The position numbers and the translations under genes were made by a program. Source: Streptomyces sp. NBS 14/10 (lineage in GTDB: Bacteria; Actinomycetota; Actinomycetes; Streptomycetales; Streptomycetaceae). From it: a stretch of DNA of 64,000 bases. Where the stretch lies: contig NZ_NCSM01000001.1 of the NCBI RefSeq assembly GCF_002224125.1, positions 62,001 through 126,000 of the forward strand, read 5' to 3'. Shown in pieces: positions 296 through 5,786 of this stretch (within the stretch, counting starts at the first letter, position 1; every line of letters starts with the position of its first letter). A model generated the notes under the pieces. That model saw nothing but the letters and a program-made list of their open reading frames with translations, was not told the origin of the DNA and did no database searches.

Positions 296-3218
<2,923 letters not shown>

Positions 3219-3222
<4 letters not shown>

Positions 3223-3813: not shown

Positions 3814-4131
3814 GTGGCGCAGCGCGTAGTAGTCACGCTCTCCGACGACATCGACGGGGGTCAGGCGGAGGAGACGGTCTCGTTCGGACTCGACGGCAAG
3901 GCGTACGAGATCGACCTCAACACTGCCAATGCGGAGAAACTCCGCGGCCTTCTCGAGCCCTACGTGGAAGCCGGCCGCAAGCGGGCCCGCTCCGGCAAGG
4001 CGTACCGCCGCACCTCCGTCGCCCCCGACCCGGCCGCGGTCCGCGCCTGGGCCCGGTCGCACGGCATGGAGGTCCCGCCGCGCGGCCGGATCCCCAAGAA
4101 GGTCTACGAGGCGTTCAACGCATCGAACTGA
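3814..4131 (+). CDS. lsrL: Lsr2-family nucleoid-associated protein (LsrL-like paralogue)
   Basis: This small H-NS-like protein bridges A/T-rich DNA and silences genes in actinobacteria. The 105-residue product has the N-terminal dimerisation beta region (MAQRVVVTLSDDIDGG, then ETVSFGLDGKAYEIDL). A basic linker follows, and then the C-terminal DNA-binding domain with VRAWARSHGMEVPPRGRIP, whose RGR at 90-92 is the minor-groove hook. I chose the GTG at 3814 because AAAGGA lies about ten bases upstream and the product then matches Lsr2 length; an upstream ATG would add a non-conserved tail. The position beside purS matches the S. coelicolor paralogue LsrL (recalled as SCO4076). Confidence 0.92.
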   Translation: MAQRVVVTLSDDIDGGQAEETVSFGLDGKAYEIDLNTANAEKLRGLLEPYVEAGRKRARSGKAYRRTSVAPDPAAVRAWARSHGMEVPPRGRIPKKVYEAFNASN

Positions 4132-4172: not shown

Positions 4173-4203
4173 TTGCACACCCACCCTGGTGATCCGCTAG
4201 AGT
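4173..4203 (+). promoter_or_regulatory. Putative promoter of the first tRNA-Gly(UCC)
   Basis: TTGCAC (4173-4178) and TAGAGT (4198-4203) resemble -35 and -10 boxes, although the 19-base spacer is slightly long. The same -10-like hexamer recurs before each tRNA in the cluster: TAGGGT at 4383-4388 and TAGAGT at 4534-4539, both about 40-45 bases upstream. Each tRNA may therefore have its own promoter. Confidence 0.5.
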
Positions 4204-4251: not shown

Positions 4252-4323
4252 GCGGGTGTAGCTCAGTAGTAGAGCGCCCTCTTTCCAAGAGGGAGGCGCA
4301 GTGTGCAATCCCTGTCACCCGCT
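4252..4323 (+). tRNA. tRNA-Gly (anticodon UCC), copy 1, atypical D and T arms
   Basis: The acceptor stem GCGGGTG/CACCCGC and anticodon stem CCCTC-TTTCCAA-GAGGG are clean, with anticodon TCC at 4284-4286, reading GGA/GGG. The D loop is AGTAGTA, lacking the usual adjacent G18-G19. The T arm reads GTGTGCAATCCC where canonical tRNAs read ..GTTCGAATC.., so the TTC that becomes T-psi-C is absent and the T stem has a mismatch. The CCA end is not encoded. See the finding on non-canonical glycine tRNAs. Confidence 0.9.
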
Positions 4324-4427
4324 CTCATCGCCTTACCGAACCACCTCGGTGGATCGGAGCCGAACCACTCCGGTGGATCGGGTAGGGTGATGGACACGCC
4401 GATCGGCGAGAGCCGGTCGGATGCCAT

Positions 4428-4499
4428 GCGGGTGTAGCTCAGTAGTAGAGCGCCCCCTTTCCAAGGGGGAGGCGCAGTGTGCAATCCCTGTCACCCGCT
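4428..4499 (+). tRNA. tRNA-Gly (anticodon UCC), copy 2, atypical D and T arms
   Basis: This gene is nearly identical to copy 1, which starts 176 bases upstream. Only the anticodon stem differs (CCCCC-TTTCCAA-GGGGG); the anticodon TCC is at 4460-4462. It shares the AGTAGTA D loop and GTGTGCAATCC T arm. The spacer from copy 1 carries two CCACC-TC-GGTGG-like hairpins within a repeated ccgaaccac..cggtggatcgg unit. A related hairpin also precedes the third tRNA, pointing to local tandem duplication. Confidence 0.9.
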
Positions 4500-4576: not shown

Positions 4577-4649
4577 GCGGACGTGGCTCAGTTGGTAGAG
4601 CATCACCTTGCCAAGGTGAGGGTCGCGAGTTCGAATCTCGTCGTCCGCT
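4577..4649 (+). tRNA. tRNA-Gly (anticodon GCC)
   Basis: This is a canonical cloverleaf of 73 bases. The acceptor stem is GCGGACG/CGTCCGC, the D loop AGTTGGTA carries G18-G19, and the anticodon stem TCACC-TTGCCAA-GGTGA places GCC at 4610-4612. The T arm GCGAG-TTCGAAT-CTCGT is canonical. It decodes GGC/GGU, the main glycine codons in high-GC genomes. The contrast with the two upstream UCC genes is useful as an internal control. Confidence 0.96.
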
Positions 4650-4654
4650 CCATG

Positions 4655-4793: not shown

Positions 4794-5786
4794 ATGGATC
4801 TCGGGGACAGTGCGCTGAGCGACAGCGCGATACATGTCACAGAACTTCGACGCAGGTACGGACGCCCATCAGGCCCTTCCTCGGACCAGGGCTACGAGGC
4901 CGTGCGCGGCGTCTCCTTCTCGGTCGAGCACGGCGAGCTGTTCGCGCTGCTGGGCACGAACGGCGCCGGGAAGACCTCCACCGTCGAGCTGCTGGAAGGA
5001 CTGGCCGCCCCGACCGGCGGCCAGGTGCGGGTGCTGGGCCGTGACCCGTACCGCGAGCGGGCGGAGGTCCGGCCGCGGATCGGGGTGATGCTGCAGGAGG
5101 GCGGCTTCCCGTCCGAGCTGACCGTGAGTGAGACCGTACGGCTGTGGGCCGGGTGCACCAGCGAGGCGCGGCCGGTCGGCGAGGCCCTGGAGCTGGTGGG
5201 GCTCGAACGGCGCCGGAACGTACGGGTCAAGATGCTCTCCGGCGGCGAGCGGCGCCGCCTGGACCTGGCGCTCGCGCTGCTCGGCCACCCGGATGTGCTC
5301 TTCCTCGACGAGCCGACGACCGGCCTCGACGCGGAGGGGCGGCGGGAGACCTGGGAGCTGGTGCGCTCCCTGCGCGACCAGGGCACCACGGTGCTGCTGA
5401 CCACGCACTATCTGGAGGAGGCCGAGGCGCTGGCCGAACGGCTCGCGATCATGCACGAAGGGCGGATCGCCGCCTCCGGACGGGTCGCGGACATCGTCGC
5501 CGAGCGCCCCTCGCAGCTCTCCTTCGCGCTCCCGGCCCCCCTCTCCGCCGCCGATCTGCCCTCGCTCGCCCAGCTCGGCGCCGCCGAGCGCGAGACGGAC
5601 GGGCGGACGGTACGGCTGCGCACCCGCGACCTGCAGCGCACGGCCACCGAGGTGCTGGTGTGGGCACGGGACAAGGGGCTCGAACTCGGCGGGCTCGACG
5701 CCCGGTCGGCGTCGCTGGAAGAGGCGTTCCTGCATATCGCCCAGGGACTGGAGAAGACGGAAACGGCGAAGGGGAACGCCCGATGA
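4794..5786 (+). CDS. ABC transporter ATP-binding protein (DrrA-type exporter)
   Basis: This is the nucleotide-binding subunit of an ABC exporter, 330 residues, cytoplasmic. It has Walker A GTNGAGKT (54-61), signature LSGGE (148-152), Walker B VLFLDE (168-173), the H-loop in LLTTHYLEEAE, and a C-terminal extension of about 100 residues typical of DrrA-like ATPases. GGAG lies a few bases before the ATG. The start of the permease gene overlaps its stop by four bases (ATGA). The histidine kinase and response regulator that follow suggest a drug or cell-envelope stress exporter under their control. The substrate cannot be read from the sequence. Confidence 0.93.
   Translation: MDLGDSALSDSAIHVTELRRRYGRPSGPSSDQGYEAVRGVSFSVEHGELFALLGTNGAGKTSTVELLEGLAAPTGGQVRVLGRDPYRERAEVRPRIGVMLQEGGFPSELTVSETVRLWAGCTSEARPVGEALELVGLERRRNVRVKMLSGGERRRLDLALALLGHPDVLFLDEPTTGLDAEGRRETWELVRSLRDQGTTVLLTTHYLEEAEALAERLAIMHEGRIAASGRVADIVAERPSQLSFALPAPLSAADLPSLAQLGAAERETDGRTVRLRTRDLQRTATEVLVWARDKGLELGGLDARSASLEEAFLHIAQGLEKTETAKGNAR

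Follow-up and report, generated by a model that had tools for sequence, protein, structure and literature searches.

A conserved second tRNA-Gly(UCC) of divergent structure in Streptomycetaceae and its likeness to staphylococcal cell wall tRNAs

Introduction

Why should a streptomycete carry, just downstream of an lsr2 gene, two tandem tRNA-Gly(UCC) genes whose D and T arms depart from those of nearly every other tRNA in the genome, and what process might such tRNAs serve? A precedent is offered by the non-proteinogenic tRNA-Gly of staphylococci, in which a GUGC motif stands in place of G-T-psi-C; tRNA-Gly(UCC) species of this kind were reportedly described from S. aureus and S. epidermidis by Roberts (1974) and Giannouli et al. 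(2009). To our knowledge, dedicated wall tRNAs are known only from staphylococci. In S. aureus, the non-proteinogenic tRNA-Gly are described as having A49-U65 and A51-U63, which are weak EF-Tu pairs, and as having lost G18G19, with UU or CU at these positions (PMC4052509). For an S. aureus UCC tRNA, efficient charging but poor binding by EF-Tu is reported, and variation of the T loop is also described (PMC8007984). How Fem-type enzymes gain access to aminoacyl-tRNA against EF-Tu is, by one account, somewhat unclear in most instances (PMC4052509).

The genes in question lie in a window of 64,000 nucleotides, the whole stretch of Streptomyces sp. NBS 14/10 DNA that was analyzed. An initial annotation had likened them to the staphylococcal tRNAs and proposed that they may be dedicated to the cell wall or may serve both wall and ribosome with weak EF-Tu binding. 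Here, their structure, distribution and conservation were examined across relatives, together with the Fem enzymes of the same genomes.

The window contains two tandem tRNA-Gly(UCC) genes with an unusual elbow

ARAGORN and the Rfam model RF00005 agree on two tandem tRNA-Gly(UCC) genes where the initial annotation had placed them, and ARAGORN calls both tRNA-Gly(TCC). The locus is arranged as follows, with two genes that we take, from their protein sequences, to be purL and purQ.

296-2545, minus strand: purL, anchor of the syntenic locus
2542-3222, minus strand: purQ, anchor of the syntenic locus
3814-4131, plus strand: gene for an Lsr2-type nucleoid protein (Pfam PF11774 and PF23359; synteny), upstream neighbor of the variant tRNA genes
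4198-4203, plus strand: TAGAGT, a probable -10 element that precedes copy 1 by about 50 nt
4252-4323, plus strand: variant tRNA-Gly(UCC) copy 1, 72 nt including T73, with no encoded CCA (ARAGORN, Rfam RF00005)
4265-4271, 4284-4286 and 4298-4315, plus strand: D loop (A18 G19), anticodon and T arm of copy 1
4302 and 4304-4310, plus strand: bulged U of the T stem and T loop UGCAAUC of copy 1, as read from the sequence
4383-4388, plus strand: TAGGGT, which on sequence only may be a -10 element serving copy 2 separately
4428-4499, plus strand: variant tRNA-Gly(UCC) copy 2, bulged U at 4478 (ARAGORN, Rfam RF00005)
4577-4652, plus strand: ordinary tRNA-Gly(GCC), CCA encoded, usual downstream neighbor of the variant
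4794-5786, plus strand: ABC transporter ATPase gene (Pfam PF00005), downstream of the tRNAs and not at this place in all relatives

Both variant genes pass the RF00005 cut-off; with 54.9 and 52.4 bits they place 56th and 60th among the 66 tRNAs of the genome, and the sole difference between them is a compensated anticodon-stem pair, T-A in copy 1 and C-G in copy 2. The D loop is AGTAGTA, as the initial annotation had written it; its statement that G18-G19 is missing was half right, since the loop aligns as A14 G15 U17 A18 G19 U20 A21, in which G19 is kept and G18 alone is replaced. The T arm, GCAGTGTGCAATCCCTGT in both copies, also stands as first written, with the refinement that it is one base longer than a normal T arm. 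The likeliest reading is GCAG-(U)-G / UGCAAUC / CCUGU, with five pairs (G49-U65, C50-G64, A51-U63, G52-C62 and, past one bulged U, G53-C61) and a seven-base loop of U54 G55 C56 A57 A58 U59 C60. The minimum-energy fold contains an alternative hairpin, which was rejected because it is not conserved and is broken in relatives with GAACACC. In the elbow so drawn, G-T-psi-C becomes G-U-G-C and G18-psi55 becomes A18/G55, while G19-C56 and U54-A58 can still form. Two features of a canonical elongator tRNA-Gly(UCC), G18G19 and the T-psi-C elbow, are therefore missing from both genes.

A scan with an E. coli-type promoter model found no promoter for the variant genes. The motif GCTANN(G/T)T was present no more than 90 nt upstream of the first variant copy at 55 of 60 loci, whereas randomly drawn 90-base stretches from these 60 loci give an expectation of 0.85.

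A canonical tRNA-Gly(UCC) is encoded elsewhere in the genome

The genome (12.1 Mb in 127 contigs) has 66 tRNA places by Rfam tRNA search; those outside the window were fetched, and all 66 were re-read with ARAGORN. A GTTCRA T arm was found in 64 of them, the sole exceptions being the variant pair, and 63 have GG in the stretch of the D loop that was scanned. Besides the variant pair, GG is missing there from a tRNA-Leu(UAA) (G000:C106:45560-45642, L348), which we take to be the bldA tRNA. The tRNA-Gly(GCC) next to the variant pair is normal in its arms, as had been stated. Glycine tRNAs number three GCC, one CCC, one canonical UCC and two variant UCC; the whole-genome check proposed in the initial annotation thus turned up a second, normal Gly-UCC gene outside the window (G000:C95:729159; L010:1470-1540), and the variant is not the sole UCC tRNA. 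A pattern search across 392 genomes of the genus found the canonical UCC gene in 390. The same pattern found none in G1060 and G1089; if that absence is real, another tRNA, perhaps the variant, would have to translate in these two genomes. With a normal Gly-UCC gene in this genome and across the genus, the variant copies need not serve translation, and since the canonical gene (390/392) and the variant (40/40) are each so widespread in the genus by pattern, neither has replaced the other.

The canonical gene shares with the variant the GCGGG acceptor (in this genome), the D-loop length, the anticodon and U73, and at 69.4 bits it had the top score among the normal tRNAs scanned. It is 71 nt long, against 72 nt for the variant, in which G18 and U55 are both replaced and the T stem carries the bulge. 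The pair 51-63 is A-U in the variant and G-C or C-G in canonical UCC genes (G-C 44, C-G 6 and A-U 0 of 50, a set of 27 + 7 + 16 sequences, distinct within each of three sets).

As far as sampled, the variant appears confined to the family

All distribution patterns required GCGG, and the variant-specific pattern also GTGC. The latter matched all 40 genomes sampled from the genus and none of 354 other genomes of the class. Within the family, 35 of 121 genomes have a sequence with at most three mismatches from the window form. A covariance model (R1), run on 22 chosen family genomes, gave 14 positives (at least 86 bits) and eight with canonical scores only, and it revealed more divergent variant forms in other genera of the family. 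One genome of genus g16 (G028) has no variant by R1 and another of the same genus (G016) has one, a gap or a recent loss. Identical tRNA sequences tie genus g3 to Streptacidiphilus and g7 to Actinacidiphila.

In a phylum sample of 296 genomes, a general Gly-UCC pattern matched in 205; both forms occurred in nine of nine genomes of the genus, and among the matches listed all others keep the TTCRA T loop. A second covariance model (R2), by which five variant genes score 98-104 bits, was run on 80 genomes chosen from the 354 of the class; under stricter filters it had matches in at least 74, the best among the matches listed reaching 76.9 bits. Ten fetched stretches with lower-scoring 72- or 73-base R2 matches held tRNA-Gly(GCC) and other anticodons and no UCC, and 17 of the 18 tRNAs in them carry GTTCRA. 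The eighteenth is a tRNA-Gly(GCC) from outside the family (L359:78-153, genome G617) with GTCCGA for GTTCGA and a normal copy beside it. Overall, as far as sampled, these matches indicate a tRNA confined to the family. The initial annotation had named similar arm changes in other species with no glycine bridge as weakening its cell wall proposal; no such changes appeared outside the family in the samples searched by pattern, among the matches listed. A plasmid- or phage-borne tRNA was ruled out, as no match to the variant was found in the plasmid or phage collections and the locus is syntenic.

Stem pairing is under selection, and positions 18 and 55 vary together

A first alignment took in 17 variant sequences, 15 of them distinct, and 100% of the cells of its 21 stem pairs are paired. 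A second, of 35 sequences, has 99.1% of stem cells paired and 99.4% of those in the T-stem pairs. Changes on both sides of a pair occurred in five pairs of the first alignment against 1.6 in shuffles, and in eight of the second against 4.7 (its pair list has one pair drawn one column off), the shuffles ignoring relatedness in each case. Further pair types do not exceed the control (7 versus 5.6, a value reached by 82 of 500 shuffles, and 12 versus 13.7, reached by 496 of 500). Together, the covariation and conservation of the stems argue against a pseudogene and indicate that the variant tRNAs are functional RNAs. That the arm changes are not chance is borne out by the uniform T arm of 64 of the 66 tRNAs and by family-wide conservation with compensatory changes.

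Across the 35 aligned sequences, positions 18/55 are A/G in 30 and G/U in five, never mixed; G-U-G-C is present in 30, and five, from genera g2 and g5, keep UUC, the G18/U55 forms having been found in these two genera. G19-C56, U54-A58 and A51-U63 each occur in all 35, as does U73, and nine have A-U where the others have G-C at the third pair of the acceptor stem. A recount at the lsr2 locus, with a pattern leaving the T arm free, covered 66 loci with 94 copies and 29 distinct sequences: A51-U63 is present in 28 of the 29 (in the remaining one, an inserted base shifts the columns), 49-65 is G-U in 24 and A-U in four, and 18/55 is A/G in 24 and G/U in four. The variant forms thus share A51-U63 as well as the additional base of the T stem, and the elbow switch is either a further step or one since reverted. 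The polarity of U55 and G55 is not decided by a tree of PurQ+PurL, in which the nodes at the U55/G55 split are weak and Kitasatospora falls in two parts. Embleya has a published place outside the core; if g5 is Embleya, that place would make G18/U55 ancestral.

Kitasatospora and Peterkaempfera lack the variant at a conserved locus

Contigs were scanned with Lsr2 from one member of the family, and the best 80 of 468 loci were used. At 51 of these best 80, one to four tandem variant copies lie just downstream of lsr2 (at least two in 14), and at 49 of these 51 loci they are followed by a GCC gene. One of four tandem copies in Streptomyces sp. UNOB3_S3 (L262:3702) has an extra A in its T arm, GCAAGTGTGC, and is perhaps decaying. 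The other 29 of the best 80 have only GCC genes, two in 27 loci and one each in L208 and L229, the contig of L229 ending at the locus. These 29 comprise all 18 Kitasatospora records, the one Peterkaempfera and 10 records labeled Streptomyces, for which the nearest rows in the PurQ+PurL tree (108 rows; L172 and L174 were left out as short rows) are Kitasatospora. Seven further Kitasatospora and Peterkaempfera genomes (g14 and g11) likewise have only GCC genes at the locus.

In the tree, 36 rows without the variant nest inside the variant-bearing family, as groups of 30 and six. The six Kitasatospora-type rows of the smaller group stand with Streptacidiphilus, apart from the other 30 (L165-L171, L205-L232 and L234 are concerned), which suggests exchange of the locus among these lineages. 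In Kitasatospora, lsr2, purQ and purL are also retained. Some variant-bearing relatives (L235, L236) have two GCC genes behind the variant, so that a simple deletion would explain the Kitasatospora arrangement. An explanation of the loss by wall chemistry was also considered, Kitasatospora having meso-DAP in part of the mycelium; it is weakened by Peterkaempfera, for which LL-DAP is reported and which nonetheless lacks the variant.

FemX is present both with and without the variant

The initial annotation had invoked a Fem-like enzyme, and a FemX-type protein is indeed present: the genome encodes two FemAB proteins (Pfam PF02388), and the best solved match of its FemX is S. aureus FemX (6snr, 9e-33). 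The second FemAB protein (G000:C34:590719; L042:1270-2571) is 49% identical to FemX. The FemABX family includes tRNA users such as S. coelicolor FemX and VanK, and this genome encodes a sequence relative of FemX, a likeness of protein family and not of tRNA. FemX of S. coelicolor is reported to add a single glycine (PMC4790382); its gene is given as SCO3904. FemAB proteins were found in 120 of 121 genomes of the family, and G022, the sole genome without a FemAB match, carries the variant. No gene linkage of the variant tRNA to femX was found.

Among 30 FemAB loci examined, all 17 g14 (Kitasatospora) loci encode a FemX, 77-80% identical and with the same neighbor gene. Kitasatospora and Peterkaempfera have both kept FemAB and lack the variant. 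In one muropeptide study of wild-type K. viridifaciens, nearly all muropeptides are given as having Gly on DAP, with Tri(-Gly) at 0.69% and Tetra(-Gly) at 1.00% (PMC8092295); these wall data come from K. viridifaciens, and absence of the variant was read in other Kitasatospora genomes. A FemX and DAP-linked glycine in a lineage lacking the variant, the latter according to that one paper, indicate that the variant is not required for the bridge. Strict coupling of the tRNA to the glycine bridge was therefore rejected, and the necessary link that the initial annotation had suggested is not upheld. The wall interpretation, excluded in this strict form, is nevertheless the leading one, and we put its chances at about even.

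Discussion

The first observation at this locus was right, and stronger than it was stated: the variant is a second tRNA-Gly(UCC) with a structure of its own that extends across the family. Compared by published description, it resembles the staphylococcal non-proteinogenic tRNA-Gly in its UCC anticodon, its Gly-type acceptor end with U73, its altered D and T loops with G-U-G-C and the presence of separate normal Gly isoacceptors. With the S. aureus tRNA it also shares its occurrence as extra copies beside normal Gly tRNAs, a Fem enzyme in the same cell and A51-U63, the last a likeness that exceeds the list first drawn up. It is unlike the staphylococcal tRNAs in keeping G19 (35/35) and changing G18 to A (30/35) where they have UU or CU at 18-19, in the single bulged U of the T stem and in mostly keeping G49-U65. 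Of the two weak EF-Tu pairs, A51-U63 is found in 28 of 29 distinct locus sequences and A49-U65 in just four; in this genome only the former is changed, and G49-U65, listed as strong, is kept, which counts against a wall role. The systems differ as well in that a single glycine per stem peptide is added here, unlike in staphylococci.

In the reading that we favor, with close to an even chance of being correct, the variant is a divergent second tRNA-Gly, under selection in Streptomycetaceae, that evades EF-Tu and donates glycine to FemX. It would most likely be charged by the normal glycyl-tRNA synthetase, as the Gly-type acceptor end and U73 are kept, and may bind EF-Tu poorly through A51-U63 and the bulged T stem. 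A pool of Gly-tRNA would thereby be left free for FemX (and VanK-type enzymes), the enzymes that supply the stem peptide with its one glycine. Since relatives without the variant still make the bridge, it could only boost or buffer the glycine supply.

Restriction to one family argues for an origin separate from that of the staphylococcal genes, and we infer that the two arose independently. A fuller scenario is tentative, its chances falling a little short of even: independently of staphylococci, a dedicated non-translational Gly tRNA would have arisen in which 18/55 switched from G-U to A-G with G19-C56 kept, and in which a bulged T stem allowed escape from EF-Tu and supply of the wall Fem enzymes; it would later have been lost in Kitasatospora and Peterkaempfera, which would have gone back to ordinary Gly-tRNA.

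A rather unlikely alternative is that the variant works in translation as a specialized tRNA-Gly(UCC). It would then read GGA/GGG as an additional isoacceptor, perhaps at some point in development or in stressed cells, with an elbow that has drifted no further than the ribosome tolerates. With G19-C56 and U54-A58 intact it may fold normally and be used by ribosomes; these pairs, U33 and A37 are kept in 35 of 35 sequences, and the anticodon stem covaries. The pair 32-38 speaks on both sides. It is always U-A (17) or C-G (18) in the 35 variant sequences and mostly C-A in 54 canonical UCC genes (C-A 48, U-A 6, C-G 0); the two copies in the window share their U32-A38 with ordinary Gly tRNAs elsewhere in this genome, whereas C32-G38 is found once among its 66 tRNAs, in tRNA-Pro(GGG). 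Canonical UCC and CCC genes are present in the genome, and the variant is not found wherever GGA/GGG must be read, being absent from the Kitasatospora/Peterkaempfera group and, in a pattern search, from all 354 genomes of the class that lie outside the genus. Codon use in four genes of the locus is likewise divided. GGG makes up 11.6% of Gly codons in variant-bearing lineages against 5.7% in those without it, a difference that could reflect a decoding role, or lineage, and counts against the wall reading. The share of GGA is similar (4.5% versus 4.1%), so Kitasatospora manages without the variant at comparable GGA use, and GGA is rarer in species with at least two copies than in those with one (2.8% versus 5.1%; GGG 11.9% versus 11.5%), neither codon clearly gaining with copy number.

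It is improbable that the variant donates glycine to some other aminoacyl-tRNA-dependent reaction (modification of a peptide, lipid or protein), conserved in Streptomycetaceae and lost in Kitasatospora and Peterkaempfera. Its disappearance from two genera that have FemAB does separate the tRNA from FemX, and the changes in its body hint at EF-Tu avoidance and name no acceptor; against this, no partner gene was found, and the locus neighbors lsr2, purQ and purL are not tRNA users and stay in Kitasatospora too. A role in regulation or storage, such as that of a sink reporting glycine charging, would fit the conserved promoter-like element upstream and is highly improbable given that tRNA shape and the Gly-type acceptor end are conserved. 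A decaying pseudogene or assembly artefact, as the low tRNA scores might suggest, is almost certainly wrong in view of the variant form in 40 of 40 sampled genomes of the genus, compensatory stem changes with 99.1-100% of cells paired and one to four tandem copies at one syntenic place.

A search of the literature by title and start of abstract found no paper on such a Streptomyces tRNA; subscription papers lay largely outside it, and an earlier report may exist. Structurally, the variant presents an elbow in which positions 18 and 55 change together. For the favored role as a glycine donor to FemX, a conserved, genetically tractable second case in model organisms that are harmless, together with relatives that have lost it, would make the competition between EF-Tu and Fem enzymes directly testable.
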